Assembly: GCF_000975155.1 (NCBI RefSeq)
Contig: NZ_BBRG01000001.1
Coordinates: forward strand, 1,004,313-1,068,312
Direction: 5' to 3'
Length of the DNA: 64,000 nt
Source of the DNA: Demequina globuliformis
GTDB taxonomy: Bacteria; Actinomycetota; Actinomycetes; Actinomycetales; Demequinaceae
In this document: piece by piece, positions 25,001 to 46,704 of the stretch
Position numbering within the stretch: position 1 is the stretch's first letter
Layout: every line of letters begins with the position of its first letter
Position numbers and translations under genes: made by a program
The notes under the pieces: model-generated
Databases searched by the model: none
Told to the model about the DNA's origin: nothing
The model's input: the letters and a program-made list of their open reading frames with translations, nothing else

Positions 25001-27496
25001 ATGGCCGGTGCTGAGAACTCGCAGGAGACCCCTGCGTCGACCGAGCCTGAGGAGCGCGACCCCCTCGCCGGCGTAGCCGTGTTCGACGCTCCGCAACAGC
25101 GGGTCCACCGAATGACGGACCTGCTCGCGGGAATCGGCACCATCGTGGGCATCGTCCTGACCCTGCTGCTGGGGGCGTACGGAAGTTCCACCACGGCGGG
25201 CTTCGCCGAGGACGTGCAGGGCATCGCGAGCCTGCTCCAACGGCTGCTCGTGGCACCCGTGAACATCTTCTCCGGAATCGTGACACTCGTGGTGCCGACC
25301 GCGGTGATCATTGACCTGGCCGTCCGTCGTGAGCCCCGCCGCATTCTTGAAGTCCTGGGAGCGGGCATTCTGGCGTTTATCGCCACCGTCGTCGCCGCGT
25401 ACACCACCATCACGTGGGGCAGTGAAGAGCTCGTCGCTAGCCTGTCCATCAAGGGCGCCGAGGGCGAGATGGTGGTGCAGCTTCCCGCGTACTTGGCAGC
25501 CGTCGCGGCCATGCTCACCGCCGCAGGACTGCGTACCACCAAGCGCGTCCTTGCCTGGTCGTGGCCGCTGGTGTGGATCTCCGCAGCGGTCGGCATTATC
25601 TCTGGAATCGTGACGCTGCCTGCGGCTCTCACTGTGGTGCTGATTGGTCGCGCCTCCGGGCTCGTGCTGCGCTACCTCATCGGGTCCTCCGCCGACCGCG
25701 CCTACGGCGGTGCGCTTGCGGACGGCATCCGCCGCGCGGGCTTTGAGCCGCGCCGTATTGTGCGGGCGGACTCGCGCGATGAGTACGAGCCGGAGGGGGC
25801 CGATGCCGTGGCTGCGGCGCTCGGTCGCACCCGGTCGGGGCGCGTCTACGCGGTCACCACGCGCGAGGGCCACCAGTTGGTGGTGCTCGCCCTGGACGGG
25901 GACCAGCATGCCGCGGGCTTCCTCACCAAACTGTGGCAGACCATCCGGTTCCGCGGCCTCGATGCGCGCGCCGAGGTCAGCCTGCGCCAAACTGCGGAAT
26001 CCACCGCACTGGTCTCTCACGCCGCCCGTACCGCCGGAGTGCGCACCGCCCGTGTGCTCGGCATGAGCCAAGCGCGCGACACCATGTTGATCGTCTATCA
26101 ACGCCCCGCCGCCGTGAGGCCGCTGTCCGAGGTCCCACCCGAGGACGTCGACGACGCGATGCTCGATGCGACCTGGGAGCAGCTCGCGCAGGCGCACGCC
26201 GCCGGCATCTCCCACCGCAAACTCAGTTCAGACACCATCTTGCTCAGCAAAAGCGACGGGTACGGCGCTCCCATCATGTGGATTACCTCGTGGGATATGG
26301 GCGAGGTCGCGTCGTCCTCGCTCGCGCGCCGCATCGACACGGTCCAGTTGCTCGCCTCACTGGCCACCATTGTGGGCGCGGAGCGTGCCGCTCAGTCCGC
26401 GTACCGCGCGCTGGGGGCGGACGAGATCGAACAGGTCGCGCCGCTGCTGCAGTCGATCGTGCTTCCGCGAGACACTCGCTCCGCGCTCAAGGCAAACAAG
26501 GACCTCATGCCACAGCTGCGCGAGCAACTCGTTGCGCTCGTGCCTGCAGCAGAGGTCAACCCTCAGGACATCGCGCGGTTTGGGTGGCGCACGATCTTCA
26601 CGTTCGTCGCCGCCATCATTGCCGTCACCTTCCTCATCACCCGCTTCAACACCCAGCAACTCATCGACGCCTTGCAGCAGGCGAACTGGTGGTGGGTGGG
26701 CGCCGCAGCCATCTGGGGCATGCTCACGTTTGCCGGCGCCGGCATCGCGCTCATGGCGTTTTCCCCTGTGCGCCTGCCCGCCTGGCGCGCGATCGTTGCG
26801 CAAGTGGCGGCTGCTTACATTGCGCTCGCCGTGCCCGCGGGCATTGGTCCTGCGGCGCTGAACCTTCGCCTGCTCACCAAGCGCCGCGTTCCCACCCCCC
26901 TTGCGGTCGCAACCGTGGCGTTGGTGCAGGTCAGTGCGGTCATTGTCACGGTCGTGGGCCTTTTTGCGCTCACCCTCTTTACGGGCTCCGAGGGGACGCT
27001 CGCCTCGCTGCCATCGACGTCCGTACTCGTCGGAGTAGGCGTGGTCATGGCGGTGGTGGTGGCCTTCATGCTGGTGCCGAAGGTGCGGCGTTGGGTGGTC
27101 GGCAAGGTCATGCCGCCGGTGCGCCAGACGTGGCCGCGCTTGGTGCAGATCCTGGGCCAGCCCATGCGCCTCTTGGCGGGCCTGGGCGGCAACCTGCTGC
27201 AGACGGGCGCGTACGTGGGCGCCTTCTACTGCACGCTTGAGGCCTTTGGTCAGGACCTGGCCGTGATGGACGTCGCGGTTGTGTACTTCCTGTCGAACGC
27301 GGTCGGTGCTGTGGTCCCCACCCCCGGCGGTCTTGGTGCCGTGGAGGCCGCGTTGATCGCTGGTCTAGGCTCCGCAGGCGTTCCGCTCGGTGTCGCGACT
27401 CCCGTGGTGCTGATCTACCGCTTCATCACCTACTGGGCCCGCATCCCGTTGGGCTACGCGGCCATGACGTGGCTGCAACGCAAGGGCGAGCTCTAG
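25001..27496 (+). CDS. LPG-synthase-like transmembrane protein with pseudokinase-like middle domain
   Basis: 831 residues. Residues 1-230 hold about six membrane segments. Residues 240-525 form a cytoplasmic domain resembling a protein or aminoglycoside kinase: AHAAGISHRKLSSDTILL corresponds to the catalytic loop but has HRK in place of H-R/G-D, and ITSWDMGE replaces the DFG-type motif, so it looks catalytically dead. Residues 530-831 are the lysylphosphatidylglycerol-synthase transmembrane domain (UPF0104 type; conserved VPTPGGLGAVEAALIAGL and RFITYWARIPLG). The soluble aminoacyl-transferase domain of MprF is absent. It probably acts on or moves a lipid in the membrane; this architecture recurs in actinobacteria without a known function. 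Confidence 0.85.
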   Translation: MAGAENSQETPASTEPEERDPLAGVAVFDAPQQRVHRMTDLLAGIGTIVGIVLTLLLGAYGSSTTAGFAEDVQGIASLLQRLLVAPVNIFSGIVTLVVPTAVIIDLAVRREPRRILEVLGAGILAFIATVVAAYTTITWGSEELVASLSIKGAEGEMVVQLPAYLAAVAAMLTAAGLRTTKRVLAWSWPLVWISAAVGIISGIVTLPAALTVVLIGRASGLVLRYLIGSSADRAYGGALADGIRRAGFEPRRIVRADSRDEYEPEGADAVAAALGRTRSGRVYAVTTREGHQLVVLALDGDQHAAGFLTKLWQTIRFRGLDARAEVSLRQTAESTALVSHAARTAGVRTARVLGMSQARDTMLIVYQRPAAVRPLSEVPPEDVDDAMLDATWEQLAQAHAAGISHRKLSSDTILLSKSDGYGAPIMWITSWDMGEVASSSLARRIDTVQLLASLATIVGAERAAQSAYRALGADEIEQVAPLLQSIVLPRDTRSALKANKDLMPQLREQLVALVPAAEVNPQDIARFGWRTIFTFVAAIIAVTFLITRFNTQQLIDALQQANWWWVGAAAIWGMLTFAGAGIALMAFSPVRLPAWRAIVAQVAAAYIALAVPAGIGPAALNLRLLTKRRVPTPLAVATVALVQVSAVIVTVVGLFALTLFTGSEGTLASLPSTSVLVGVGVVMAVVVAFMLVPKVRRWVVGKVMPPVRQTWPRLVQILGQPMRLLAGLGGNLLQTGAYVGAFYCTLEAFGQDLAVMDVAVVYFLSNAVGAVVPTPGGLGAVEAALIAGLGSAGVPLGVATPVVLIYRFITYWARIPLGYAAMTWLQRKGEL

Positions 27497-27510
27497 CTGT
27501 GCGGTGCTCG

Positions 27511-27582
27511 GATATCTCAGCAAACTGCGACGTTCTCAGCATTGGACGACCGCTATCTCAGCACTTCGACACTATCTCAGCA
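27511..27582. repeat. Cluster of four TATCTCAGCA direct repeats, left flank of the transposition island
   Basis: Copies end at 27522, 27541, 27563 and 27582, spaced 19, 22 and 19 bp, with core TMTCTCAGCA. The cluster lies 14 bp after the 831-aa gene. Repeats of this size and spacing are typical of transposase-binding sites at IS21- or Tn7-like ends. A related cluster in the same orientation is at 37365-37416. Confidence 0.7.
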
Positions 27583-28268
27583 GTCGGGTTCGATGGCGTG
27601 CGCCGGCCCCAGAGATGCCTTCCGCTGCTTGAGAAGCCGTCTCAAAGCAGGCTCAAGTTCGACACGCCAGGCATCTAGTGCGCCGCAGCTCGCCAGTCAG
27701 GCAATGTGGACGCGGTGACGAGGGCCGGAGCGGCATAGCCAGCCTCGAATCCCGCGCGCAAAGCACCTGCAAATCCGGCGTGCTACGTTGCGGGAGTCGT
27801 GGTGGCCAACTGTGTTCGATCGCGGGAGAGGCAAGAGCGATCGTGGAAGCAGGCCCGACGGGAGGGCCCTTCCTCGCGGCCGATCGTTCTAGTTCCGCGG
27901 CGCACGACCCTTCACCATCGAGCGCCGCTCCGGTCGGGCTCGCGCCATTGCGAGGGGACGCGCGCGAGTCCACGCGCCAACACGGTTCGGGCATGGGCCC
28001 GCACGCAGCGATCGTCGACTCGGGGTCGACGACGTCGAGCGATTCACCACGGCTCTCCGCGGTGGAGCAAAACTGCGCATGTGAGGACACGTCAGACCGT
28101 GCAAACACCAAGGTTGCGTGAGCATGCTCCTGGAAGGGGATCGACGCGATGAGCCGGGCATGGACGCGCTGGGGTAACAATCCGAGAGGTCCAACCGCAC
28201 CAAGGCTTCGAGCCGCCAGCGACACGGATCCCCGAATGAATGAACTAGCTGCTCTCGGGCGCTGTACG
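27583..28268. other. Non-coding or degenerate stretch at the island's left side
   Basis: About 690 bp with no frame I can support: the available frames have no family resemblance and no ribosome binding site, and composition is GC-rich but irregular. It contains short inverted matches such as CGATCGCGGGAGAGGCAAGAGCGATCG. It may be transposon-end DNA or decayed genes. Confidence 0.5.
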
Positions 28269-28670: not shown

Positions 28671-28948
28671 GATCACCGTCCTCCCCACTCGACCGCCCCG
28701 CAAGCCTACCACACATTTGACGCGACTGCGCATCCGAAATGGCTCAGATCGGTGAATCGACGCATTCCAGTGACACTTGACGCACTTGATGGTCAGGCGT
28801 ATAACGAGAAACATGTCGACGTTGCACGGCATCCAAGGCGAACCCGCGGGAGACTCCTCGCGCGTCGCACCGTGTGCAACATCTCCCGGAGGACGCAAGC
28901 GGAGCCGTGCACTCAATACACGACTCTTCCTCTACGGGTCGGTCGCCC

Positions 28949-29737
28949 ATGCCTAGCGTTGGCCGTGCGTCGGGGTACGAAACCGATCCTTATCGTCACG
29001 TGAGGTCAAACGACCGCTACATCCTCGTCGGAGGCGGCACCCGTGGCACGCAGCGATGGGAGCAGCCTGCCGACGAGCGATCGCAAGACTTGCCGGTCGA
29101 GCGTGCGGACACGTGTCGCCGGAGTGTCCGTTACAAGAACAAGCGCTCATTCCAGGGCTTCTATCCGGTGTTCTCGACAGGGCAGTACGTCTGGCACGAG
29201 TCGCTCCTAGAGCTCACGTCACTGATGTGGCTCGATCGCGCCGGCGCGCTACGAGGCGTTGCGACGCAGCCGTTCGCGGTCATTGGCCCTCACGCGTTCC
29301 GGCACTACATCGACTTCGCGTTTCTACAGCCCGATGGCGTGCGTGCGATGGTTGCCGTCAAACCGCGGCGGGCCATCGACGCCGATCTGCGCGCGACTTT
29401 CCGAACGCTGAACGCCGTCTGTCGGGCCATCGGCTGGCGTTTCATTGTCATGTCCGACATGTCTCGTACGGAGATGTACGCGCTTCAGTGGCAATGGGTG
29501 TACCGCGAACCGTGGAACGCGTTGCCGACCGAAGCACATGCACGACTCTTCGATGCCGCGCAAAGTCCAATCTCACTGGGCGAGGCTTCGACGATCGCTT
29601 GCCCAAGCGACCCCTCGCGTGGACTTGTCGGGATCTACCACGAGCTTTGGCGCCGCTCGCTGGTCCTGGTCTCTCCCGGAACGCTGCGGCTCGGATCGCT
29701 AGTGGTTCAACGTGACGGGGGCGGCCGTGCGCATTGA
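28949..29737 (+). CDS. TnsA-like heteromeric transposase endonuclease subunit
   Basis: 262 residues from ATG 28949 (GTG 28907 or 28874 are alternatives; no ribosome binding site decides). The nuclease fold shows HESLLELTSLMWLD (first catalytic Glu), a QP motif, HYIDFAF (catalytic Asp) and MVAVKPRR (catalytic Lys). In TnsA the residue two before the lysine is Glu, Gln or Asp; here it is Ala, from a GCC codon one base away from GAC. Strand-cleavage activity may be lost or altered. The C-terminal part should contact TnsC. In Tn7, TnsA cuts the non-transferred 5' ends so that the element moves by cut-and-paste. Confidence 0.8.
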   Translation: MPSVGRASGYETDPYRHVRSNDRYILVGGGTRGTQRWEQPADERSQDLPVERADTCRRSVRYKNKRSFQGFYPVFSTGQYVWHESLLELTSLMWLDRAGALRGVATQPFAVIGPHAFRHYIDFAFLQPDGVRAMVAVKPRRAIDADLRATFRTLNAVCRAIGWRFIVMSDMSRTEMYALQWQWVYREPWNALPTEAHARLFDAAQSPISLGEASTIACPSDPSRGLVGIYHELWRRSLVLVSPGTLRLGSLVVQRDGGGRAH

Positions 29738-31772
29738 CTTCGGAGTCGGTGACGAGGTGACCTACCGAGACTTGCCATGGCGAATCGAGTCGATCTCGCT
29801 CATAGCGATCGGGCTCGTGGATCGTGCATCCGGCGATCGAGTCACGGTCGACCGCCTCGCGCTGGAGGACGAGAATCCGACGGAGTCGCGCGTCCCGCGT
29901 GAGTTCACATGGCTCGATACCAACGACGTCGGACTTGACCTGACTGCCGACGAGCTCCGCATCGGGCTCAAGGTGATCGAGGTGATCGAAGCGGCCTCTG
30001 ACGCGCACCAGGAACTTTCGGCACCAGGCGAACCTAAGTACAGCAAGGCGGAGCGCGCTGCGCGCGCGCGTGCGGAGCTATCGACCAAGCACGGCATAGA
30101 GATTGCGGCCAGCACGTGGCGCAGTTACGAGAAGCGGTGCCGTGAGGGCGCCGGTGTCGCGTGCGCTCGCGATGGCCGTCGTGCGGATACCGCCAAGGTC
30201 ATTGACCGGGCAAGTCCGGCACTTATCGAAGTGTGTAGGGCCTTCCTGGAAAAGCAACGGACGCGTTCCACCATGAACGTCAATGCGCAGGTCGCGGAGG
30301 TCGAGCACGCGTTCTTCATCGCTCACCCCGATCGTGCCGACGAACTCCTGCCAACACGCGTGCTCGGGCGATTGCTCGTCGAGTTGGGCGGGGCGTTTCA
30401 ACCTGCGATCGAGGCCAAGACCCGCCTCAACACGACGACCAAGGGCTGGATGCTCGGCAGCACCGTGCCGGTCGGGCCGGGCTGGGAGGTGCAGGCGGAC
30501 TCAACGCGAATGGACTGTCTGGTCCGTCTCGACGACGACCGTGTGGTGAGGCCGAACCTGACAATACTTCAGGACAAGTTCTCGCGGTCCATCGTCGGGT
30601 TTGGGATCAAGGAGACCAATCGAGCAATCGACGTGGTGCTCATGGCTGCGGGCCACATGCTCCCTATCGTCAGGCGTCGAGAGATGTACTCGCATCTCGA
30701 CTACGACCGACTTCGTGATCTCAACCTCGACTGGTTGTGCGAGATCGACGGCCCGACGGACTGGATGCACGACGTCCGTCGGAACGCGATTCGCATCAGT
30801 CGTGTAGTGACCGACAACGCGCTGGATTTCGTCGGCGGGCCCGTCACCGCCGGCTTCCACTACCTCGGGATCATGCATGCGCCGGTCAGCATGGGAACCG
30901 GCTCGGACAAGGGAATGGTCGAGGCAAATCTTGGCAGCATCTCCACGCTCTTCCTCCAGCACCTCAACGGGTATACGGGACGAAATACCGCGCACCGTGG
31001 ACGTCACCCCGAGCGGGACTCCGTGCTTGACCTTGACGAGCTCGTCTACCTATTCGACGCATGGGTCACGATTGTGTGGCAGAACCGCCGGCACGAGGGA
31101 TTGACGGATCCCTACTATCCGCGGGCCGCTCCCATGAGTCCGAACCTCGCTTTGGCTTCAGCGTTGCCGTTCACCGGTTCGTTGCCCAAGTCGATCACCT
31201 TCGACGACTACGTCCGACTGCTGGTCGCTGAGGGGCGTGTGGTGACGGCAATGGGAATCGAGTTCGACAGCCGGCGGTACGACTGCGAGGCTCTGAATCC
31301 ACTGCGTCCGGTGGCTCGCGAGCGCAAGGGTGCAAACGTGCGCATTCGTTTCCACCCAGACTTCAAGGGCTGCATTTGGGTCATTCATCCAGACAGCGGC
31401 GAGCTCATTAGATGCGACCTGGTTGACCCGCGCAGGCAAGCCCCGTTCACACGCAACTTCCGCGACACGTACCGCGCGCTCGCCTCCGACTACAGCACGC
31501 TCGGTGACGCAGAAGCACGCCGCTGGACCGTGGTCATGAAGGAAGCTGCGAACGCTGAGCACGCGAAGCGCAACAAGGAGGAGCGCCGAAAGGCCCGGGC
31601 GCTTGAGCTCGAGGCGGCCCACGGCCGCGTCCGGGTAGACGACGCCCACGTTCAGGCGATCGGTGCGCCGGATCGTCCGAACGAGGAGCCCGGCGTGGAC
31701 CGAGAAGTGAGCACCGACGACTTCGTCCCATTCGACATGCCCTACGGCATCGACTGGGAGGAGGACGAATAG
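29727..31772 (+). CDS. TnsB-like DDE transposase (Mu/Tn7 integrase fold)
   Basis: 681 residues from GTG 29727, 11 bp inside the nuclease gene (GTG 29712 is possible). An N-terminal part (about 1-230) of helical DNA-binding domains includes KAERAARARAELSTKHGIEIAASTWRSY, an HTH. The catalytic core has aspartates D258 (VQADST) and D363 (VTDNA) and glutamate E399 (MVEANLG). The 35-residue D-E spacing is that of TnsB and MuA. A beta-barrel and a charged C-terminal tail (about 590-681) follow; in Tn7 that tail contacts TnsC. It performs strand transfer of the 3' ends. Confidence 0.9.
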   Translation: MRIDFGVGDEVTYRDLPWRIESISLIAIGLVDRASGDRVTVDRLALEDENPTESRVPREFTWLDTNDVGLDLTADELRIGLKVIEVIEAASDAHQELSAPGEPKYSKAERAARARAELSTKHGIEIAASTWRSYEKRCREGAGVACARDGRRADTAKVIDRASPALIEVCRAFLEKQRTRSTMNVNAQVAEVEHAFFIAHPDRADELLPTRVLGRLLVELGGAFQPAIEAKTRLNTTTKGWMLGSTVPVGPGWEVQADSTRMDCLVRLDDDRVVRPNLTILQDKFSRSIVGFGIKETNRAIDVVLMAAGHMLPIVRRREMYSHLDYDRLRDLNLDWLCEIDGPTDWMHDVRRNAIRISRVVTDNALDFVGGPVTAGFHYLGIMHAPVSMGTGSDKGMVEANLGSISTLFLQHLNGYTGRNTAHRGRHPERDSVLDLDELVYLFDAWVTIVWQNRRHEGLTDPYYPRAAPMSPNLALASALPFTGSLPKSITFDDYVRLLVAEGRVVTAMGIEFDSRRYDCEALNPLRPVARERKGANVRIRFHPDFKGCIWVIHPDSGELIRCDLVDPRRQAPFTRNFRDTYRALASDYSTLGDAEARRWTVVMKEAANAEHAKRNKEERRKARALELEAAHGRVRVDDAHVQAIGAPDRPNEEPGVDREVSTDDFVPFDMPYGIDWEEDE

Positions 31773-32794
31773 TGTCGCTCTACGTACCGCGCGTTAACAC
31801 CTCCGACGACGTGTTCCACTACCGTGCGGTGAACAAGGACTTGCTGCGCATGGCTAAGCCCCTGCGCGTTGCCCCAATCGCCGAGGTACAGGCGTACAGC
31901 TCCGAAGAGCGAGCCGCCTACAACGCCGAGCGTCTCAAGTATCTGTCGCGCGGCATCGTGGTCAACACGCCCACGATCGCCGCTTTGCGCGCCCAGACCG
32001 AGTTGCGCCTGCTTCAGAACCATGGGCGCATCGCGGGCGGGGCTGGCATCTACATGTCGAGTTCATCGAATCATGGCAAGACCACCGCCATCAGGTGTGT
32101 ATTGAGGGACACGCTTCTCGCGCACAAACAGGCGGGCGCAGGACCGTCCAAGACGCGGCTACCTGTCGGCCTGTTCACCATGCCTGAAGTGAGCAACGTC
32201 CGCGCGTTCTGCGGACGTGCGCTGAGCTTCTTCGGACGCGACACAACTACCGCAACGCCCGAGAACAACCTGATCGAACAGCTCGCGATCGCGATCAATC
32301 GCAGCAGGATGCAAGTTGTGGCGATCGACGAGGTTCACAGGATCGACGCCGAACGCGACGGCGAGTCCGTCGCAGAGACCATCCGCGGACTCGCAGACAA
32401 CATCAGCGCGACCATGATCCTCGCCGGCATCAACCTTGAGAATCACTCCTTGTTGCGTGGCGAAGCCGCCCGACAGGTGCGCACACGGTTCTTTTCATCA
32501 CCTGTCTACGACTACGCCGACCCGCGCTCGCCCGGCCGAAACGAGGCCTGGCGAAGTCTCGTGAATGGCATGCTCCGTGCGCTCCCGCTCTACCGCCTGG
32601 ATCGAGCCGCTCTTGCCAAGGAGTGGCGCACACTCGGCACCATGTCCGAGTGGACCGTTGGATTTCTATCGTTGCACCTCACTGTCGCGGCGATGGAGAA
32701 GATCCAAGCTGACGACATCGAAGGAGAGTTCCTAACGATCGACAACTTGCAGGACGTGCAACTCCCGGGACCCCGTCCGACGACCAGGACATGA
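31772..32794 (+). CDS. TnsC-like AAA+ regulator ATPase
   Basis: 340 residues, starting at the GTG that shares one base with the TnsB stop (TAGTG). Walker A is SSSNHGKTT with lysine K103; Walker B is VVAIDEVHRID with D186 and E187; sensor-like TMILAGINLEN follows. It resembles TnsC/TniB/MuB ATPases that form filaments on target DNA and link the target selector to the transposase. The N-terminal 80 residues, rich in Arg and Glu, are the likely TnsB-contact region. The next gene starts 1 bp after the stop. Confidence 0.88.
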   Translation: MSLYVPRVNTSDDVFHYRAVNKDLLRMAKPLRVAPIAEVQAYSSEERAAYNAERLKYLSRGIVVNTPTIAALRAQTELRLLQNHGRIAGGAGIYMSSSSNHGKTTAIRCVLRDTLLAHKQAGAGPSKTRLPVGLFTMPEVSNVRAFCGRALSFFGRDTTTATPENNLIEQLAIAINRSRMQVVAIDEVHRIDAERDGESVAETIRGLADNISATMILAGINLENHSLLRGEAARQVRTRFFSSPVYDYADPRSPGRNEAWRSLVNGMLRALPLYRLDRAALAKEWRTLGTMSEWTVGFLSLHLTVAAMEKIQADDIEGEFLTIDNLQDVQLPGPRPTTRT

Positions 32795-32795
32795 C

Positions 32796-34979
32796 ATGGG
32801 CAACCGATCGGGAGAGCCGACTCGCGAGTATGTCGCCCAGCTGGTGCGCGACCTCCGGTTTCCTCCACTGCACCCCGCTTTGCGCGTGACCCCCGTTCCC
32901 GGGGAGGTTGTCGTGAGTCTTGCGGAACGCCTTGACGCACACTGCGGCGCGCCTCCCGGAAACTACGTAAATGTTGCTCGCGGGCTGGCGCGGCGCCTCC
33001 TCGGCAAAGTGCCGGGCCCGCGCACCGACCAAGTGGTGCTCGCCGAACTCCTGGTGGCACGTTGCCGGCTCCGCCGCGATCAGTTGCACCCGCACGAGCC
33101 GCTTCGCACCACCGCATGGCACACGTGTCCCGATTGCGGACCAGTCGTCGAAGTCGTCGCATCATGCGCGCGATATGCATGCAGGCGCCACGCGCGCTGG
33201 ACTGGACCAACGGCCGCCAAGCGGTCCACACCACTTGCTGCCACCGAGCCCGCACCTGATCACGGGGTTCACCTCCGCGCTAGCACCCTCGACGCGATCA
33301 TCGCGCTCGAATCTCTAACCGAGAACAGCCGCCCGCGCAGTGACGAACTCTTGCGACGAGCCCTGTCGCAATCCAATAAAGACAGGCGCGCCGTACCATC
33401 GACCGCTGATGTGATCTTCGCGTCCGCTCTGGCTGGCCTGATGTCCGACCAGTCGATGTGGACGGGCCTCGACTCGTCGCCATCCGTCGAGGACGCGTAC
33501 GCGCTCGTCGAGCGCGCGGCGCGTGCGCATGCACGCTTGCCGCAGTGGCCGCCTGATGTCACTGCACTCACCGTTCATGCGTGGATGCTCCTGCGATTCG
33601 CTGTCGGCGAGCGGCTTACCGAGCAGGGTCTTGTGATCGAAGTGGACCCGATCTGTTCCGCTTTTTCCGCACCCCGGAGTGCGAAGTTCAGCGCCTTGGC
33701 TGCCGACTTCGCGCGCTGGCTTGCCGCCGTCGACGCAGCGACGTTGCGGCAGTCGTCGATACGAGACCTGTACTGCGCGTCTCCGGGAGCTGCGAGCGCC
33801 CCTGGAGCATCAGTCTGGGTGTGCGATGCCGGGCACGGTCTTGAGCGAACTGCGCCGCCCGCATGGTCCCGTCGCAGGACGTTCCCATGCCAGGTCTGCA
33901 GCGGGGATCGTGCGGTGGAAGGCATTAACAGTCTCGCTGACAGTGACCCTGACACGGCTGCACAGTGGTGCTACGAGCACAACGGACAACTGCTTCCGTC
34001 GGATGTGACGCGCGGCGAGAAGAGGCTGGTGTGTCGGATCTGCGACGCTGGCCATCACTCGCCTGCGACTGTCATCAATCTCGTGTCAGCGTCCGGATGC
34101 CGGCTCTGCCATCGTGAACGTCCCTACTGCGGGGCGCAGTCGGTGGCACGTGCCGCACCCAACCTCCTGCGATGGTGGCACCCGACGCGGAATCTGCCGG
34201 TGACGCCTCAAAGCGCGAGCGCGGCGACGTCGACCCTCCGATGGTGGACATGCGCGGAGGGCCATGCATTCGAGCAGAGCGTCGCCAGCAGGCGACGGTG
34301 TGCTCGCGGCGGTGAAGGTCAATGCCTCGTCTGCACCCGACGGCGTCTTCAAGTCGGCATCAACGACCTTACAACGGCCGAGCCAGCGATTGCGTTGGAT
34401 TGGGACGACGACGAGAACCCGACATTAGCGTGTCGAACGCTAGCGAATCCGATGCGCAAGGGCGTGTGGCGATGCCGGTTCGGTCACGTCGTGTCGACAA
34501 CCATTCACGACCGTGTCGTCACCGGCGGGTGCAAACTCTGCGCCCCGTCGTTTCGAGTCGGGCGACCAAACACCCGGGCCGGTGACGCCAGCAAAGCTGC
34601 GCGACACCCGGAAAGGGTCTTCCTCGCCTTCGACGACCCGGCAGACGTAGCACCCGAGCGGGACCTCACGAATATCGAGTGGACTGCAGTCGAAACGTAC
34701 ATGGTGTCAGTGTTTCCTGGATCCCGACGAGAGCGGCGATTGGTCCTCGACGCCATCTTGTGGGTGCACCGGCGCGGAGGCCGGTGGATGGACCTCCCAC
34801 AACGCTACGGCCCGCCCAGCACCCCACACCTGTGGTGGCGTCGCTTGTGTGAACACGACGAGTGGCGCACCATCGTCGACACGCTCGAGGGGCTCGCCGA
34901 CGACGCGTCTTCATGCGATGCGATCGCAAAGGAACTCGCTGAGCAGCAGGGCCATTACGTCGAGGTGAGCATTGCGTAG
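32796..34979 (+). CDS. TniQ-like target selector with four zinc ribbons and a C-terminal IS402-like domain
   Basis: 727 residues. Residues 20-135 look like a divergent TniQ domain (TPVPGEVVVSLAERL, then a zinc site HTCPDC...CRRH around 111-133). Residues 140-335 are helical and unassigned. Residues 341-582 are four tandem zinc ribbons of DUF4379 type, each W/V-x-C-x2-GH...C-x2-C followed by a linker with N-D/S-L and a Trp (WWHPTRN, DWDDDENP). Residues 624-705 match the DUF4096/IS402 N-terminal domain of IS5-group transposases (LTNIEWTAVETYM..., LDAILWVHRRGGRWMDLPQRYGPPST). In Tn7-like systems the gene in this position selects the target. The domain mix is unlike standard TnsD, TnsE or TniQ. 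A sister gene follows with an 8-bp overlap. Confidence 0.72.
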   Translation: MGNRSGEPTREYVAQLVRDLRFPPLHPALRVTPVPGEVVVSLAERLDAHCGAPPGNYVNVARGLARRLLGKVPGPRTDQVVLAELLVARCRLRRDQLHPHEPLRTTAWHTCPDCGPVVEVVASCARYACRRHARWTGPTAAKRSTPLAATEPAPDHGVHLRASTLDAIIALESLTENSRPRSDELLRRALSQSNKDRRAVPSTADVIFASALAGLMSDQSMWTGLDSSPSVEDAYALVERAARAHARLPQWPPDVTALTVHAWMLLRFAVGERLTEQGLVIEVDPICSAFSAPRSAKFSALAADFARWLAAVDAATLRQSSIRDLYCASPGAASAPGASVWVCDAGHGLERTAPPAWSRRRTFPCQVCSGDRAVEGINSLADSDPDTAAQWCYEHNGQLLPSDVTRGEKRLVCRICDAGHHSPATVINLVSASGCRLCHRERPYCGAQSVARAAPNLLRWWHPTRNLPVTPQSASAATSTLRWWTCAEGHAFEQSVASRRRCARGGEGQCLVCTRRRLQVGINDLTTAEPAIALDWDDDENPTLACRTLANPMRKGVWRCRFGHVVSTTIHDRVVTGGCKLCAPSFRVGRPNTRAGDASKAARHPERVFLAFDDPADVAPERDLTNIEWTAVETYMVSVFPGSRRERRLVLDAILWVHRRGGRWMDLPQRYGPPSTPHLWWRRLCEHDEWRTIVDTLEGLADDASSCDAIAKELAEQQGHYVEVSIA

Positions 34980-37254
34980 CCTGCTCGCACCAACCCTCGT
35001 GCCAACGCTGGTGCGAGGAGAAACACCCGCGAGTTTCTCGACACGGGTCGAGCAGCTCGGCGGCGCTCGTCCCGGAACCTACCTCGCTGTCGCCGAAGGC
35101 GAGCTGCGGCGAATGACGGGACGACGCGCTTCCCTGCAGCGACAGTTCCGTCACTTGCGCGACCTGCTGACCGAACGATGCGGGCTCGACGAAGACACTC
35201 TGGCGCCACAGCAGTGGGACCTCAAGACGGCATGGCATTCATGCCCCGCGTGCGGTCCCGTCGTCGAAGTGCACCGCGACCGCGCTCACCGCGTGTGCCC
35301 TGTGCACCATCGGTGGACTGGAGCGAGCAGAGTCGGGCCGCGCACCCGTGCCGAACCTGCGGTTCCCGGACCATGCCACGGCGCCCATGTCGGAGCGGAC
35401 ATCGCCTCCGCGTCACGCGCCATGGAGGCCGAAGAACGACGCAACCCTCAATTGGTAGCCGAGGTACTTCGACATGCAGTGTCCGCAAGGTCCATCGGGA
35501 CGAGGGATCAGGTCGAGCCCGAAGATCTGCCGTTTGCCGCCGCGCTCGCTCTGACCGTTTTGTCAGATCAGTACATCGAACATGCAGCGCACTGCGCCGA
35601 TGGACCTGCCCTCAAGCATGCGGTCACCGCCATCGTCCGCTCCATCGTCTATGAGAACGGCTGGTTGCGCGACCCTGTCGACTCCATCGTCAATGCAGCG
35701 CTACTCATGTTGAGAGCGACGATCGTGTGGGCCCGCCAGCAACTAGGGCTTGAGCGAACTATCGACGCCTTTACGCCCACAGTTGTCGTGTGCGACGTCG
35801 CCGAGCACGGTCCGTGGAAGGTCGATTCGCACGGCATCCTGAGTGTTGTCTCATCAACTCGCCGTGACCGTTCGTGGTGGCGGGATCGGTTCGTCGTCGG
35901 CGAACGCCCGGGCGCATCGGGTCCGACGCACTGGGTACTGATGTGTCCGGTGGGTCACGTCCTTTACTCCGGCCTCAAACGCCCGCAAGGTCGGTCCAAC
36001 ACCGACTTCTACTGCAACGTGTGCGCTGGTACGCGCCTGGTGCCCGGGATAACCTCACTCGATGCACGGTCCCCAACAATTACGCGAACGTGGCACCCCT
36101 CGCTAAACGGCCCGGTCACGCCTTCCGACATCCTTCCGGGCTCCCGCCGCTATTTCTGGTGGCTATGCCCAGTAGGCCATTCTTGGCCAGCCACGGCCGC
36201 ATCGAGAACCGAGAAAGGCGCCGGCTGTCCATACTGTGCGGGCACCGCGATCGTCCAAGGCGAACAGGACTTCGCCACTACCCACCCTCACCTCGTCGGC
36301 TTCTGGGATGGAACTGTCGAACAGCCAGGGCCGCATCAAGTATCGGCACGTAATAGTCGCCGAGAAATACGACTTCGCTGCCCAAGCGGTCATCCGTTCA
36401 CGCGCAGCCCGCTACGGTTCGCCCTCACCCCGACATGTCCGTACTGCGAAGGGCGCGTGCTCATACCCGGCCGCAATGATTTCGCTACCACTCATCCTCA
36501 CCATGTCGACTGGTGGCACCCCACGGAGAACAACGGGCTCCTCCCGTCAGACGTACGCGCTGGCTCGAACCTCTCGGTCACGTGGCTTTGCCCCTATGGC
36601 CATGATTTCCTACAAGCGATCGGATACATGGCTAAGCGGAGAGCACCCAGTTGCCCAATCTGCTCCGGGCGAAAGCTTCGCCAAGGCGTCAACGACGCGG
36701 CAACGAGATATCCAGTGATCACGCGTGAATGGGCCGACGACCTCAACCCGGTCGCGGCCAACGAGACAGTTCCCGGCAGTGGAAAGTGGTGGTGGCGCTG
36801 CCTAAAGCACGGACACGAGCTCGCGATGACAGTCCACGAGCGAGCTCACGCAGGTGGCTGCACTGATTGCCGAGCAGACGACCGAGTAGCACAGAGGTTT
36901 AGCGTCAACGCTTCCGATCTCGACGCACCGCCGGCAGCCGCGATACGTTCGAGGGTCCAACATCTCCAAGTAGTCTCCCCATCGTTGACGGCAGGAGCAC
37001 CCGCGCTCGCCGATCACGTCTGGGAATCTATTGCGGCTATCGTCTTGGAGGCATCGCCCCAAGCGGTCGTTGACCGCCGCAAAGTGGTGACTGCGATCTT
37101 GTATGTACTGGCGCATGATTTGAAGTGGGCCGACACTCCGCGCGCGCTGAGCGCTCCCAGCACGGCTTGGAAGTGGTTCCATACAATCCGTCTGGCGGGC
37201 GCGTGGGATCCGATCCTTGATTCCCTCGCGCCGTTGCCAAGAAGTCGCGCCTAG
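34972..37254 (+). CDS. Second TniQ-like target selector with five zinc ribbons and an IS402-like domain
   Basis: 760 residues from a TTG at 34972 with GAGG six bases upstream, overlapping the sister gene by 8 bp. It has the same layout: a TniQ-like N-terminus (VRGETPASFSTRVEQLGG, then HSCPAC...CPVHHRWTG), a helical middle, five DUF4379 zinc ribbons at about 321-632 (WWLCPVGHSW, CPYCAG, FATTHPHLVGFWDG and so on), and a C-terminal DUF4096-like domain at about 678-755 (LADHVWESIA..., TAILYVLAHDLKWADTPRALSAPST). It has diverged strongly from the first copy, so the duplication is old. Two selectors suggest two classes of target or a heteromeric reader. Confidence 0.72.
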   Translation: MRSLLAPTLVPTLVRGETPASFSTRVEQLGGARPGTYLAVAEGELRRMTGRRASLQRQFRHLRDLLTERCGLDEDTLAPQQWDLKTAWHSCPACGPVVEVHRDRAHRVCPVHHRWTGASRVGPRTRAEPAVPGPCHGAHVGADIASASRAMEAEERRNPQLVAEVLRHAVSARSIGTRDQVEPEDLPFAAALALTVLSDQYIEHAAHCADGPALKHAVTAIVRSIVYENGWLRDPVDSIVNAALLMLRATIVWARQQLGLERTIDAFTPTVVVCDVAEHGPWKVDSHGILSVVSSTRRDRSWWRDRFVVGERPGASGPTHWVLMCPVGHVLYSGLKRPQGRSNTDFYCNVCAGTRLVPGITSLDARSPTITRTWHPSLNGPVTPSDILPGSRRYFWWLCPVGHSWPATAASRTEKGAGCPYCAGTAIVQGEQDFATTHPHLVGFWDGTVEQPGPHQVSARNSRREIRLRCPSGHPFTRSPLRFALTPTCPYCEGRVLIPGRNDFATTHPHHVDWWHPTENNGLLPSDVRAGSNLSVTWLCPYGHDFLQAIGYMAKRRAPSCPICSGRKLRQGVNDAATRYPVITREWADDLNPVAANETVPGSGKWWWRCLKHGHELAMTVHERAHAGGCTDCRADDRVAQRFSVNASDLDAPPAAAIRSRVQHLQVVSPSLTAGAPALADHVWESIAAIVLEASPQAVVDRRKVVTAILYVLAHDLKWADTPRALSAPSTAWKWFHTIRLAGAWDPILDSLAPLPRSRA

Positions 37255-37344: not shown

Positions 37345-37364
37345 TGTTTGTGTAAGTTACCGCT

Positions 37365-37416
37365 CTAGTCTGGCAATGGACGCTATTCCGGCAAAGTGAC
37401 CGTTCTACTCTGGCAA
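37365..37416. repeat. Cluster of three CTANTCYGGCAA direct repeats, right flank of the island
   Basis: Copies at 37365-37376, 37383-37394 and 37405-37416 (spacing 18 and 22 bp). Core and spacing resemble the TATCTCAGCA cluster at 27511, in the same orientation. Probably a solo end of an IS21-like element or a related transposon. The remainder of 37255-37682 has no gene I can support. Confidence 0.6.
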
Positions 37417-37682
37417 TTGCCGGGATGTAGATACCACACCTGTTGGTTTTCTCACGGTTCCACCCTTCAGCACTTCAACATGTGACCATGAAGCGCTCAT
37501 CCACCGCCTCGGGAGTCTCCGCATGGGTCAGCAACTTCGCACGCCATCGGCCAGTGCAGCGAAAGGTCTTCGACGTGTCGCAACTGGACACGTGCTGTCA
37601 ATGAGCACCGTTGGCACCCTGTCGCGATGATCCGAGTCCGATGCGTGGCGCATCGCACGGTGGCGCGCGTTGGGGCCGCAGG

Positions 37683-38195
37683 GTGAGCAAGGACCCTCAT
37701 GCGGCCACGCGCCGATCCTCATCGCGACGCGACGAACTCTTCGACGCTGCACTCGACAGCGTGGCCCAGCATGGGTTCGAGCGAGCATCCCTGCGCGACA
37801 TCGCTTCGCGCGCGGGTATGTCACATGTTGGCCTCCTACGACACTTCAATTCCAAAGAGGAATTGCTGGCTGCTGCACTCAACCATGAGGATGATCGCAC
37901 CGCGGCTGAGATACGTCCGCTCCTTACCGCCGGGCTTTCCGACAGCGAAGTGATGCAGGCCGTCATGCAGATTGCACTGAGGGACCGCGACCGGACTCGT
38001 CGGTGGCTCTCGCTCACGCTGGGTGCGGTAGATCCCACGCACCCAGCACATGCATGGTTCAGTGGGCGCTACGACCGACTGGTTGCGATGGTGGAGGACT
38101 ACGCATCGCGCGCACACAGGCGTTCAGACGGACGCTTCGATCCCCGCACGCGAGCGCTACTGATGCTGTCCATGCTCGACGGGCTGCGCCTGTAG
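37683..38195 (+). pseudogene. TetR regulator truncated by an in-frame TAG
   Basis: The HTH (LFDAALDSVAQHGFERASLRDIASRAGMSHVGLLRHFNSKEELLAAAL) and most of the ligand domain are intact. The frame stops at TAG 38193-38195 right after MLDGLRL. Reading through the TAG continues with SLINPGADVVGR, the usual C-terminal sequence of such regulators (DGLQ-xx-L-x-P-x-DV). A single base change from CAG or TGG explains this. The start is uncertain: GTG 37683 or ATG 37641. It lies directly before a hydrolase remnant, echoing the intact TetR/esterase pair near 61000. Confidence 0.65.
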
Positions 38196-38256
38196 TCGCT
38201 CATCAACCCGGGCGCAGACGTCGTAGGGAGAGTCTCCTCTCGCCACTACCATCAGC

Positions 38257-38751
38257 GTGAGCGCACAGCAAGGGATTCACCACGTCTCCCAGACACCCGC
38301 GATGCCGGATCACGCTCAGCAAGACGAGGCTGGCCGGCAAGCGGTGGGCAGCAGTACGGATACCAACGAGCCCGGGACCGTTAAGGCCCTCGCGTTAGCA
38401 ACGACGGGTGCTGTCATTGACGAGAGTGAAGTCAAGGCGGCGGATGCGTCGCACGGCGATGCGAAGTACTCCATGCGGTGCCGCACGATCTGCCGGAGTC
38501 GGACACCCGCATCCTCCTGTTCATCCTGGCAGCGGGCAACTGGCACCAGTGGTTTTCTTCTGTCCGATACCGTCCGTGTGTATCGCAAGCTGCTTCAGTC
38601 CGGCGCCCTCGCGGAACTTCACCTGTGGGAAGGCGCGCCGCACGGACCATTCACGGGGCGGACGAAGGGGGATCGCGAGCAGGTCTCACAGGTCTGCGCG
38701 TTGCTTAAGAGCGCATGGATGCCTTCTGCGGCACGCACGAAAGCAGGCTGA
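38257..38751 (+). pseudogene. Remnant of an HSL-type alpha/beta hydrolase with internal deletion
   Basis: The 5' part encodes GTVKALALATTGAVID, close to TITGLALATTGAVID of the intact esterase at 59982. It then shifts frame (PHDLPESDTRILLF appears in another frame, matching the strand before the HGGG motif). The frame resumes with FLLSDTVRVYRKLLQSGALAELHLWEGAPHGPF, matching that esterase's C-terminus. About 150 residues carrying HGGG and the nucleophile are missing. It cannot be active. Confidence 0.75.
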
Positions 38752-38863
38752 TCTTCCATCAGCATGTAAGAGATCGGAGCCGCGATATCGCGTCGCGCTG
38801 AGACTGTGCGTTTCAGGTTCGAACTGCGTGAGCGCCCCACGGACCACACAAAGGAGTTCTGCA

Positions 38864-39960
38864 ATGGCGACCATCACCACTGTGCGAGGGGAGATCCCTG
38901 CCGAGACGCTGGGCTTCACCTCGATGCACGAGCACCTCAATGGCGATATGGACCTGCTGACGCGCATCGCGCGCCTCTACAGCGACCACACGCCTCCTCC
39001 CGAGATGCTTGCGCTGCGTAACGAGAACCTTGCGTTCTTGCGAAGTGGCGCCTCTATCTTCTCGGCCGAATGCATGACTGTCGGCGACGTGGAGTACACC
39101 GCCGCAGAGCTCGGGCACTTCCGGGACATTGGCGGCAGGTCGGTCGTCGACGCGTCGCCGATCGGCATTCGTGGCGACGTACGTGATCTGCGCGCGGCGT
39201 CCGAGCGCGCAGATGTACACGTGGTTACTGCGACTGGGCTGTACACCGCGGCGAACCGGTATGACGAGCACGTCGGACTGACAGAGCACCAGCACGCGGA
39301 ACTCTTCCGTCGGGAAGTGACAGTGGGGATCGGTGATACCGGCATCCGAGCGGGCCTCCTCAAATGCGCACTCAGCGCCGCGTCACCGCGCGCACCGCTC
39401 AGCGAAGTTGAAGTCGCGACGCTGCGTGCGTGCGCGACCGTCGCGCATGAGACCGGACTATCGGTTCATGTCCACACAGCGTTTCCCATGGGGCACGAGC
39501 AAGTGATCTCGGGCCTCGGTGTATTGCTCGACGACATGGCGCTGCCGCCGGACCGGGTCGTGATGATTCACATGGACTCATTCCTTCGTCCGTGGAACTC
39601 GCGGCGCGATTACCTCGGTTCCCTAGAGAGCGTGAAGTTCGTCGATACCACCCTCGTCGAGCGTGTTCTCGACCGTGGCGTCACCGTCGGCTTCGACAGT
39701 TGGGGATCCGAAGTAGAAATGCTGCCCCAAGACGACGACCGTCTCAAGGGGCTCATTCACCTGATCCGCTCGGGCTACGGCGAGCAGATTGTCCTCGGCC
39801 ATGACATCACACAGAAGCCCAAGGGGTCACTTACGGTGCGCACGGATTCACCTTATTCAACCGCCTCATCACCGCGGCTTTCGCTCAGTTCGACGTCGCT
39901 GAGAACGCATACGAACAACTGACAGTGACCAACCCCGCGCGCGTGCTAGCACACCCATAA
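38864..39960 (+). pseudogene. Phosphotriesterase-family amidohydrolase, frameshifted near the C-terminus
   Basis: ATG 38864 has AAGGAG 7 nt upstream. The frame encodes MHEHLNGD (metal-binding HxH), VHVHTAFP, VVMIHMDS and GFDSWGSE, typical of phosphotriesterase-like lactonases. After KPKG at 39826 it goes out of frame and ends at 39922. Adding one G to the GGGG run at 39823-39826 restores VTYGAHGFTLFNRLITAAFAQFDVAENAYEQLTVTNPARVLAHP to a stop at 39960, the normal family C-terminus. So one base was lost, or the assembly has an error. The 31 altered residues would replace the last helices; activity is doubtful. Confidence 0.8.
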
Positions 39961-40024
39961 GTGGTGAAGGCGCAGTGCACACGTAAGTAGAGCTCCGTTG
40001 ACCCCGGAGGTCCGACACCGAAGC

Positions 40025-40049
40025 GGAGCGGCGCGACGCGCGCCGCTCC
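40025..40049. terminator. Bidirectional terminator hairpin
   Basis: Perfect 11-bp arms GGAGCGGCGCG and inverse around ACG, between the convergent phosphotriesterase remnant and the dehydrogenase gene. Confidence 0.65.
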
Positions 40050-40069
40050 ACGCGGCTACAGGCACAACG

Positions 40070-41098
40070 TCAGTCCAGGGCGACGACCACCTTATCCGTC
40101 GCCCCCGGGGTTCCGGCGAGGTCGATCGCGCGCGCTACCTCACTCACAGGGACCACATCGCTCACGATCATGGCGTACTTGTCGACATTGGCCGCAATGT
40201 CGGCGATAACATCGGCCATCTCGGTCGGATGACCCATGGAGTGAACGATGGTGAGTTCGGCAGGGATCATCATCTGCGAGTCGAACGTGATGGGCTTGCG
40301 ATGGATACCGACGATGCCGTAGACCGCACCGAGCTTCGGCCCGGCGAAAACCGTCTCAGGCACGGCCGGAACGCCCGCGGCATCGAGATAGATGTCGGTC
40401 CCAGGGAGCCCTGCGCGACCAAACGCATCCGTGGCTTCGCCGTGTAGCTCGACCAAGCGGCTGCGCACGTCTTCTCGGCTCGAATTGATGACAGCATCCG
40501 CGCCAAGCGCGAGCGCCTTGTTCAATCGATTCTCTTGCACATCGGCCACTACCACGTGCTTCACGCCGTGGGCCTTGAACGCAAGGAGGGCCCCGAGCCC
40601 GACCGGCCCCGCTCCGAACACGATGGCCGAGTGATCGGGCGTCGGGCGAGTTCGGTCCACGGCGCGGCGTGCGACCGCGAGCGGCTCAGCGAGCGCTGCT
40701 ACGTGCCACGGGACGTGGGCAGGGAAGGGAATGACGTTGCGCCCAGGGTTGGCATTGCGCACCGCGACGTATTCGCTGAGCGCACCCTGGGGTCCGCCGC
40801 CGCCGATGATCGCGTCGGCAACGCCTGTGGGATCAATGACTACCCGGTCACCGACTGCGAGGCCACTCACGGCGGCGCCTACCTCGACGACCTCGCCTGC
40901 CGGCTCGTGCCCGATTGGCGTCTCCGTCCTGCCAACGGGGATGCCGCCTTCGGTGAGCGCGTGGGGATCCGCGCCGCAGATTCCGCACGCTCGGATGCGT
41001 ACGAGAACGTCGTCGGCTCCGATCGTGGGGATGGGGACCGTCGCACTCTTCAGCGCGCCGGGGCCGGTGATGATGACGGACTGCATCGTGGGGCTCAT
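40070..41098 (-). CDS. Zinc-type alcohol/polyol dehydrogenase (MDR family)
   Basis: 342 residues, medium-chain dehydrogenase. Catalytic zinc site: GICGADPHAL (Cys) and GHEPAGEVVEVG (His-Glu). The NAD(P) motif is GAGPVGLGAL (about residue 170). The structural-zinc loop with its four cysteines is absent; the segment reads DPTGVADAIIGGGGPQGALSEY instead, so only one metal per subunit is expected. The substrate is unknown; in this locus a sugar acid or polyol is likely. It stands between decaying genes and the GH2 gene. Confidence 0.82.
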   Translation of the reverse strand: MSPTMQSVIITGPGALKSATVPIPTIGADDVLVRIRACGICGADPHALTEGGIPVGRTETPIGHEPAGEVVEVGAAVSGLAVGDRVVIDPTGVADAIIGGGGPQGALSEYVAVRNANPGRNVIPFPAHVPWHVAALAEPLAVARRAVDRTRPTPDHSAIVFGAGPVGLGALLAFKAHGVKHVVVADVQENRLNKALALGADAVINSSREDVRSRLVELHGEATDAFGRAGLPGTDIYLDAAGVPAVPETVFAGPKLGAVYGIVGIHRKPITFDSQMMIPAELTIVHSMGHPTEMADVIADIAANVDKYAMIVSDVVPVSEVARAIDLAGTPGATDKVVVALD

Positions 41099-41305
41099 GG
41101 GGGACTTGCCTCATCTCAGTAGTAGTCGGCGGCCCGTGCGCCGCAATGGTGCGTCGGCCGCTAGTCGTGTTGTGGATGGTCCGCGATTCACGCCGTGCCA
41201 GCGGCGTCAGTCACGAGGTGCTGCGCGAGCGGCCAGGGCCAGCGCCTCCCTCAGCGTGGGTTACCTTGAAGGAGGAAGGCGCCGGCCTGCCTTCGGACGT
41301 GGGGC

Positions 41306-43729: not shown

Positions 43730-44193
43730 CATGTCTCCTTAGGTTGTATTCAAAGTGCATTTGGGGCCTAAAGTGCGCTACCAGGTGCCACATGGCGGGC
43801 TACCACTGGTCGCGCACCGCCTTGCTAGATATCCGAGCCCGCGACGGATGGTTGCAAGTCGTCGTCGGCAATCGCTTTTCCGAAGGGTACGAACGCTGCG
43901 AGGGGTGGTGATCCGCAGCGCCTGTTTGAAGGTCCGTTCCAATAGCCGTCCCATGGTCCGACCGCCTCCCGAGGGGAGAGACCACGGCCTAGGGCGGGAC
44001 CGATCGCGCCGGTACCGCGAGAGTCGGTTCGCACCATTGCCTCCATCGACACGGCTCCAACCCGAACGCTGGCCCCGCTAGTGTCACGTGACATGATACG
44101 TTAACACTCGTGCCGAGTCGCCGATGACCGTCACGTGGCGGATCGATGGCCCCTCCGCTCACTCCACGCCTTAAGCACGAAAGCGCCTCAACG
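43730..44193. other. Divergent promoter region between GH2 and the GPH symporter
   Basis: A 464-bp gap without a supportable gene. Apart from the operator at 44082, TGATACGTTAACA at 44095-44107 is a second LacI-type half palindrome. The rest shows nothing clear. Confidence 0.5.
44082..44095. promoter_or_regulatory. LacI-type operator GTGTCACGTGACAT
   Basis: The inner 12 bp TGTCACGTGACA is a perfect palindrome with a central CG. Two further copies of the same design lie at 48474 and 55979. It is about 100 bp before the symporter start. Confidence 0.65.
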
Positions 44194-45612: not shown

Positions 45613-45640
45613 GCCAGAGTGTCCGCCCGGGCATCCCTCA

Positions 45641-46633
45641 TCACGCCGTGTCGCCTTCGACGACTCGAAGTTGAGGGAACCCGGCGGCGTGCGCACCGGC
45701 CTCGTCGCCGTCGATCGCGCTAATCAGGTTCGCGCCAAGCCCCCGTCCGACCTCACCCTGATCGATCCGGAATGTCGTGAGGCGCGGCGACCAGAGTTGG
45801 CTCTCGGGAGTCGCATCTACTCCCATGATCGCCACTTCACTGGGCACTTCAAGGCCGAGTTCCCTGCATGCCGCGAGAACTGCCAAGGCGACGACGTCCA
45901 CTTGGCACGCGATAGAGGTCGGCTTGTCGTGCGACAGTACGGGTTCCAGAATGCGCGCCGCAGTCGCCACATCCAGTGGCACCTCGACCAGTGTGGGCGG
46001 GTCGAGGCGCAATTCGGCCGCGGCTTGCAGAGCACCTCTAAAGCGACCCATACCGCTTGGGTAGTCCACAGCGTCGGCCGGACGCGCAAAGAGCAAGCGC
46101 CGCCTGCCGACCCGTTCGACTAACGTCTGAACCAGCATCGAGCCGACGTGAACATCGAACTCATCGAGTTCCGACTCGCCACTGTCCGGAACTACGACTA
46201 CACCCGTTCGCCTCAGTTGCTCCGCCGCCCCTGGCGCGAGGACGTTGAAGTTCACAATCGCCACTGGCGCAAGCATGCGCAGGTCGGTCACGATTGCGTC
46301 CGAGTCCGAAATACCGAACTGTACGAGCACGTGAAATCCTCGCGACGACAGCACCGCCTGCAACTCGACGATGGAGTCCTGGAACAGCGGGGGCAGCGTG
46401 CCAGCCGGCACCAGGACGACGACGGTCGACCCTCGTCCCGTGACCAGGCCACGGCCGGCTGGTGACGGGGCGTACGCCAACTCATCGACCGCCTGATGGA
46501 CACGCGCGCGTGTCGCTTCAGGGAATCGTTCTCCTCGACCGTTGAGGATCTCGTTAACCGTGCTCCGCGAGAAGCCCGAAAGCCGCGCCACGTCCCAACT
46601 TGTCGCACGCTTGGGTCCGGAGGTTTTGGTCAT
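45641..46633 (-). CDS. LacI family regulator 1
   Basis: 330 residues from ATG 46633; a longer frame exists but is Arg-rich and crosses the operator. The HTH reads SWDVARLSGFSRSTVNEILNGRGERFPEATRARV, with N-E-I replacing the usual S-R-A before the hinge; the hinge helix follows (YAPSPAGRGLVTGR). The periplasmic-binding-like sugar domain fills 60-330. A perfect palindrome just upstream of its start suggests autoregulation. Effector unknown, probably a sugar from the glycosidases around it. Confidence 0.88.
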   Translation of the reverse strand: MTKTSGPKRATSWDVARLSGFSRSTVNEILNGRGERFPEATRARVHQAVDELAYAPSPAGRGLVTGRGSTVVVLVPAGTLPPLFQDSIVELQAVLSSRGFHVLVQFGISDSDAIVTDLRMLAPVAIVNFNVLAPGAAEQLRRTGVVVVPDSGESELDEFDVHVGSMLVQTLVERVGRRRLLFARPADAVDYPSGMGRFRGALQAAAELRLDPPTLVEVPLDVATAARILEPVLSHDKPTSIACQVDVVALAVLAACRELGLEVPSEVAIMGVDATPESQLWSPRLTTFRIDQGEVGRGLGANLISAIDGDEAGAHAAGFPQLRVVEGDTA

Positions 46634-46643
46634 TGGAGAAGTT

Positions 46644-46662
46644 TGGCACAGCGTCTGTGCCA
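46644..46662. promoter_or_regulatory. LacI operator TGGCACAG-CGT-CTGTGCCA
   Basis: Perfect 8-bp arms with a 3-nt centre, 10 bp upstream of the LacI regulator 1 start. No second copy was noticed in the window. Confidence 0.65.
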
Positions 46663-46704
46663 TCTGGCGGCGGGGGCGCCGACCCGGCCCGGTGCCGGAG
46701 CCAC

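Follow-up and report, generated by a model that had tools for sequence, protein, structure and literature searches.

The 64,000-bp stretch of Demequina globuliformis DNA analysed here (contig NZ_BBRG01000001.1, positions 1,004,313 to 1,068,312 of the forward strand; hereafter the window) contains the operon of a Tn7-like transposon, which consists of five open reading frames (ORFs) in tandem on the + strand between 28874 and 37254, namely tnsA, tnsB, tnsC and two genes that we call selector1 and selector2 (Table 1). Three of the four junctions overlap and the remaining one is a 1-bp gap. The order TnsA-TnsB-TnsC followed by two selector genes, as given by the original prediction, was borne out by the ORFs and by their Pfam and NCBIfam matches, and the operon is real. 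The product of tnsA matches NF033179 (TnsA_like_Actin) at E 7.4e-31, with 107.3 bits and thus 2.7 bits under the cut-off of 110, TnsB matches PF09299 above the Pfam cut-off (E 7.7e-6) as well as solved TnsB weakly (best E 5.4e-4), and TnsC matches PF05621 (TniB; E 2.5e-9). Residues D263, D368 and E404 of TnsB are among the invariant columns of an alignment of 10 TnsB sequences and are read here as the putative DDE triad. The interval first proposed, 28949-37254, describes the operon only, as the ATG at 28949 lies inside the first ORF and the element itself starts at 27498 and passes the window end.

This element measures 62,522 bp and runs from window position 27498 to G000:C8:1094331, where G000 is the genome of the window; the length follows from a mirrored distal end, from CTAGC on both sides, and from the flank gene and the alignment of the joined flanks to the relative G021. 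The two ends carry TGT and ACA, respectively, and agree in 16 of 25 bases in inverted match, a value equalled by 1 of 20,000 shuffles. At the left end the CTCAGCA sites are spaced 19-22 bp apart, and the distal end has fewer sites, in inverted orientation. CTAGC lies outside both ends as a 5-bp target duplication, and the flanks, when joined in silico, align with uninterrupted sequence in G021, that is, with an empty site, while G005 aligns with them over the first bases after the stop only. The gene that directly follows the LPG_synthase_TM gene (hereafter LPG gene) in G021, which we take to be AztD, is found ~63 kb further on in the genome of the window. The LPG stop codon lies within the duplication, and the tnsA side of the element faces the LPG gene, the same orientation as in Tn7, whose tnsA side adjoins its target gene.

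Both selectors consist of an N-terminal TniQ-like part, an array of zinc ribbons and a C-terminal DUF4096 domain. The four ribbons predicted for selector1 and the five predicted for selector2 agree with the Cys/His spacing, which repeats at regular steps of 70-74 residues. PF14311 (DUF4379, treble-clef) matches selector1 at E 1e-18 and 67.7 bits and selector2 at E 6.1e-38 and 129.3 bits (cut-off 24.5), with Pfam marking fewer stretches, three and four, respectively. Likewise, the expected IS402/IS5-like domain was found at both C-termini, where PF13340 (DUF4096, the N-terminus of IS5/IS402 transposases) reaches 44.5 bits in selector1 and 39.8 bits in selector2, above its cut-off of 34.3. The model of a whole IS5 transposase, NF033580, stays at 49.4 and 38.6 bits versus a cut-off of 110; its first third only is matched, and the DUF4096 of both selectors is without a DDE core. 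A fair reading of these sequences is that DUF4096 was captured from another transposon without its DDE part. The selectors are indeed two diverged copies, with 31% identity over 561 residues, which by part amounts to 41% in the TniQ-like region, 38% in the ribbons and 28% in DUF4096. An AlphaFold model of full-length selector2 has a mean predicted local distance difference test (pLDDT) score of 48.5.

The TniQ-like character of the N-termini emerges from profile-profile comparison. A two-row profile of the selector N-termini matched a six-row actinobacterial TniQ profile, made of the N-termini of genes that follow tnsC in actinobacterial plasmids, at E 2.3e-6 and a probability of 89%, and the controls gave probabilities of 0.1% (reversed TniQ), 0.1% (TnsC), 0.2% (TnsA) and 0.8% (ribbons). 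Compared singly with PF06527 (TniQ), five of the six rows reached E 0.027 or better, two of them above the cut-off, and the row of L057 was unmatched. In addition, CxxC and CxxH are present in each selector with 14 residues between them, at residues 111-132 of selector1 and 91-112 of selector2. This part of the original prediction is thus supported through profile comparison with controls, and the N-termini are probably TniQ-like.

Table 1. Coordinates of the element's features and of its target gene in the window
Feature	Position	Strand	Evidence or remark
LPG_synthase_TM (flippase-like) gene; target, outside the element	25001..27496	+	PF03706, E 1.5e-32
Left copy of the 5-bp target duplication CTAGC	27493..27497		Same 5 bp after the distal end at G000:C8:1094331
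End on the tnsA side, with terminal TGT and CTCAGCA at four sites (27516, 27535, 27557, 27576)	27498..27585		Inverted 16/25 match to the distal end
tnsA	28874..29737	+	NF033179 TnsA_like_Actin; start uncertain, GTG 28874 or ATG 28949
tnsB, DDE transposase	29712..31772	+	PF09299; weak matches to solved TnsB structures
tnsC, AAA+ ATPase	31772..32794	+	PF05621, PF13401
selector1, 727 aa	32796..34979	+	TniQ-like part, then 4 ribbons, then DUF4096
selector1 ribbon array, residues 343-582	33822..34541	+	Cys/His pattern, PF14311
selector1 DUF4096, residues 624-693	34665..34874	+	PF13340, E 1.8e-11; NF033580 positions 3-96 of 258 only
selector2, 760 aa	34972..37254	+	TniQ-like part, then 5 ribbons, then DUF4096
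selector2 ribbon array, residues 325-633	35944..36870	+	Cys/His pattern, PF14311
selector2 DUF4096, residues 679-748	37006..37215	+	PF13340, E 5.4e-10; NF033580 positions 4-82 of 258 only
Second end-like array, inside the element: TGTAAGTT plus three sites of the GGCAA type	37351..37434		Like arrays right after the LPG gene in relatives
Cargo	37611..64000, continuing outside the window to G000:C8:1094331		10 cargo proteins tested

Several features link this element to known systems. Like Tn7, which uses TnsD at attTn7 (glmS), it combines tnsABC with a TniQ-type selector that bears CxxC and CxxH, and it is inserted near the stop codon of a conserved gene with a 5-bp duplication. According to PMC2918618, TnsD has CxxC and CxxH in the same order with 24 residues between them, as opposed to 14 in the selectors of the window, and all four residues are needed; Tn7 inserts ~20 bp past the glmS stop, whereas the present insertion lies at the stop codon of the LPG gene; and TnsD binds a site 23-58 bp from the insertion point, a distance which, transposed to the window, falls in the final 20 LPG codons, which are conserved. 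TnsD also differs in that helix-turn-helix domains follow its core (PMC10293859), in the place of which DUF4379 and DUF4096 are found here. Gene order and the TnsA, TnsB and TnsC families are shared with the actinobacterial TnsA-like/TnsB/TniB/TniQ transposons, the second clade of PMC8649781 (2021), which that paper describes as dominated by Actinobacteria and without a characterised member. The selectors of that clade are plain TniQ or TniQ with other parts, and DUF4379 occurs in 1 of 80 named loci.

Taken together, the sequences show the operon, both ends, the 5-bp duplication, the empty site in a relative, the insertion at the LPG stop codon and the domain composition of the selectors. We consider it probable, at roughly 0.7, that these belong to a Tn7-like transposon of 62.5 kb, of the actinobacterial TnsA-like type, at least one selector of which acts in a TnsD-like manner at the 3' end of the LPG gene. 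In such a mechanism the treble-clef array of the selector and its DUF4096, a DNA-binding domain of IS5/IS402-type transposases, would bind the conserved 3' part of the LPG coding sequence, the selector's TniQ-like N-terminus would recruit TnsC, and TnsC would then bring TnsAB, with insertion a short distance downstream, at the LPG stop codon. The two selectors would have arisen by duplication of a gene that already held all three parts, a duplication after fusion that we infer because selector1 and selector2 share every part.

Some results weigh against this proposal. PF06527 is unmatched in both selector N-termini in Pfam, so that the TniQ-like start foreseen by the original prediction did not appear at that level. 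A structure model of the selector2 N-terminus, built with TniQ rows in its alignment, has a mean pLDDT of 58; TniQ structures fill the first 7 places among its 35 Foldseek hits, none of the hits is significant at E 0.001, and the best VIA Z is 3.7; as such, the modelled fold is consistent with TniQ but the evidence from it is weak. A single intact element, and hence a single insertion site, was observed. The fragment of a selector2-like gene in G038, a genome of the same genus, is without both the TniQ part and DUF4096. Finally, the internal end-like array at 37351, which lies directly after selector2, is oriented as the left end and is 10 kb away from the LPG gene, has no explanation in the favoured model; it may be left over from a tandem insertion. 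Two candidates were rejected: an inverted partner end at window 43821-43842, the top score, has no neighbouring sites and no near-match to CTATCTCAGCA, and an element ending just before the internal array would have neither an inverted end nor CTAGC, as none was seen there.

The 3' end of the LPG gene is a candidate att site. The gene is present in 45 of 47 genomes of the family, and similarity to eight relatives mostly stops at its stop codon. Read by eye, end-like arrays follow it at 14 of 44 LPG 3' ends (43 genomes). When scored with a matrix built from the internal array of the window only, 11 of the 44 beat the best (18.6) of 412 control windows taken after other ORFs, and the window's own left array, at 11.5, is not among these. 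Excluded from the controls were 11 windows that are LPG ends as well as two, L042 at 4019 (29.9) and L219 at 2534 (18.3), that overlap LPG ends or arrays; with the latter two kept, 13 of 44 lie above the 99th percentile (13.9) and 3 above the maximum (29.9). In G002 and G025, islands without tns genes occupy the LPG 3' end (L047 3822-9800 and L046 4500-16860), each beginning with TGTAGGCAGACGG a few bases past the LPG stop codon.

Such arrays might also be conserved inherited sequence or old relics, in which case Tn7-type insertion at the LPG 3' end would not be recurrent. Arrays of several species resemble one another, and a tns operon beside them was found in 1 of 47 genomes, that of the window; the TnsB profile matches five of the 47 at E 1e-5, the four besides G000 weakly and in frames of 443-533 residues, and we read these four as other transposases. 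Nor was a convincing distal end with a duplication seen at other LPG-site islands in 7 genomes, the stretches of G020, G011 and G035 being short of the flank gene; an ACA+AGGGG match in G038 was taken as chance. Against inheritance, a similar array lies inside the element of the window, and the near relatives G005 and G021 are without an array while G038 has one. In G038, moreover, the LPG gene precedes an end-like array, after which comes the selector2-like fragment, 53% identical to selector2. In this fragment (L008 8453-10300, - strand) a methyltransferase-like start is joined in frame to the ribbon array, a fusion that a deletion appears to have produced, and with no match to tnsABC within the fetched stretch around it, the fragment looks like a relic. 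We regard inheritance as rather unlikely, and recurrent use of the LPG site as likely, though not proven.

The original prediction also suggested two targeting modes. In such a scheme, one selector would direct the element to the LPG gene, and the second would use ribbons or a DUF4096 of its own to send it to other places, such as IS5-type ends or plasmids. That the selectors have diverged yet retain every part would suit this, as would the dual selectors with different roles that a survey of selectors describes (PMC10293859) and the two tandem TniQ-like genes that follow tnsC in L185, L187 and L191, from genomes of the order. The two proteins could equally form one complex, however, and because one integration site was seen and both DUF4379 relatives (described below) manage with one selector, the evidence is neutral; a second mode is possible but doubtful. 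Another explanation concerns DUF4096 alone, which might be a passive leftover of an IS5-type element that inserted at the end of an ancestral selector gene and whose first part is read in frame. The match to no more than the first third of the IS5 model agrees with this, as does a relative, L071, that has nothing after its ribbons. However, the DUF4096 signature residues are retained in both selectors at 28% identity, so that the domain was kept through long divergence, and in a second relative, L197, the corresponding position is occupied by a different domain that probably binds DNA; we regard a passive leftover as very unlikely.

These two relatives came from searches with TnsB. Scanning with a TnsB alignment of 10 rows confirmed 413 loci, and a DUF4379 selector occurs in one of the 80 of them that were retained, L071 of Cryobacterium tagatosivorans; TnsB at E 1e-20 or better was present in 34 of 396 genomes of the order, and one of 37 fetched stretches, L197 (G247), has a DUF4379 selector, several of the 80 loci and 37 stretches ending at contig ends where a selector may be out of view. 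As in the window, tnsABC is followed in both by a TniQ-like protein with a DUF4379 array, so that whole selectors stand beside tnsABC, as had been anticipated; the fragment in G038, relic-like and without tns genes, is where this linkage did not hold. The relatives represent two further lineages at genus level and differ from the window in having one selector gene, which in L071 comprises five units with nothing C-terminal and in L197 three Pfam units and then what is probably a winged helix (PF12840, E 4e-5; 24 bits versus a cut-off of 27). Among the loci examined, and by a narrow two-row model, a DUF4096 tail was found in the window's selectors only; the model also matched one separate 141-residue ORF in L082. 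The TnsB proteins of the three DUF4379 operons cluster with a support of 99 in a quick tree built from 116 rows, as well as in 90% of 200 bootstraps of a 42-row tree, and L071 and L197 still group together when the window's row is removed. The sequences would fit one origin of the DUF4379 array with later exchange of the C-terminal module, a reading that is only tentative because the branches of the TnsB tree are long.

Searches elsewhere returned little. The selector N-terminal profile over 396 genomes of the phylum and TnsB as a single protein at E 1e-60 each found the genome of the window alone (1/396), viral contigs searched with selector2 and TnsB gave no match, and none of 44 stretches from genome contigs searched with TnsC was confirmed. 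In plasmids, the selector1 N-terminus had no match, and selector2 matched 63 records, each with a coverage below 80%; the three of these that were inspected (L055, L059, L060) have no annotated tns gene in the vicinity. In four plasmid elements, tnsA adjoins an opposite-strand relaxase gene (L057, L062, L063) or dnaE (L066), neighbours that may mark other insertion sites. L071 (8500-9150) and L197 (12482-13102) share a small helix-turn-helix-like gene upstream of and opposite to tnsA (32% identity over 97 residues, E 2e-15), perhaps a regulator. The idea of such a gene common to all three DUF4379 operons was discarded, as the window's ORF 28269-28916 matches neither relative's gene, and in Pfam it has no family apart from one chance match (E 0.12). 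L197 also has a separate ORF with four DUF4379 units (13069-14001, - strand), upstream of tnsA on the same strand. As for the cargo, the 10 proteins tested (GH2, GH3, a sugar transporter, LacI regulators, UxuA, PfkB and others) belong mainly to sugar catabolism, transport and its regulation, and the G+C content is 61-66% in the scanned part of the element compared with 67-69% before it.

We interpret the element as a transposon of a known kind that has acquired a new type of selector architecture. The closest likeness in the survey of selectors is Tn6022 (TniQ + TnsF), which also combines several zinc fingers with a recombinase-derived part, although TnsF, which has an inactive tyrosine recombinase, stands as a protein of its own, whereas in the window such parts are fused to TniQ, with an IS5-type transposase as the putative donor (PMC10293859); the main text of that paper names neither DUF4096 nor IS5. 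In the full-text collection searched, which leaves most subscription papers aside, no paper pairs any two of DUF4379, TniQ, DUF4096 and treble clef, none brings Tn7-like together with lysylphosphatidylglycerol, and the three DUF4379 papers are, by title or opening of the abstract, not on Tn7.

Tn7-like elements supply tools for inserting DNA at specific sites. To these the present element adds a selector built from TniQ, repeated zinc units and a domain of another transposase, and the 3' end of the LPG gene represents a candidate safe site for insertion. Here we speculate, well aware that it is a long shot, that this lineage reads its target with a treble-clef array, each unit of which would contact DNA and be rearrangeable, fused to TniQ and to an exchangeable C-terminal module (none, a winged helix or an IS5 domain), and that a duplicated reader would give two addresses. 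If the ribbons do read DNA in modular fashion, as the original prediction suggested they could, they would offer a protein-based, changeable address system beside the RNA-guided ones, and the natural variants, with three to five units and three kinds of C-terminus, make modular reading testable.

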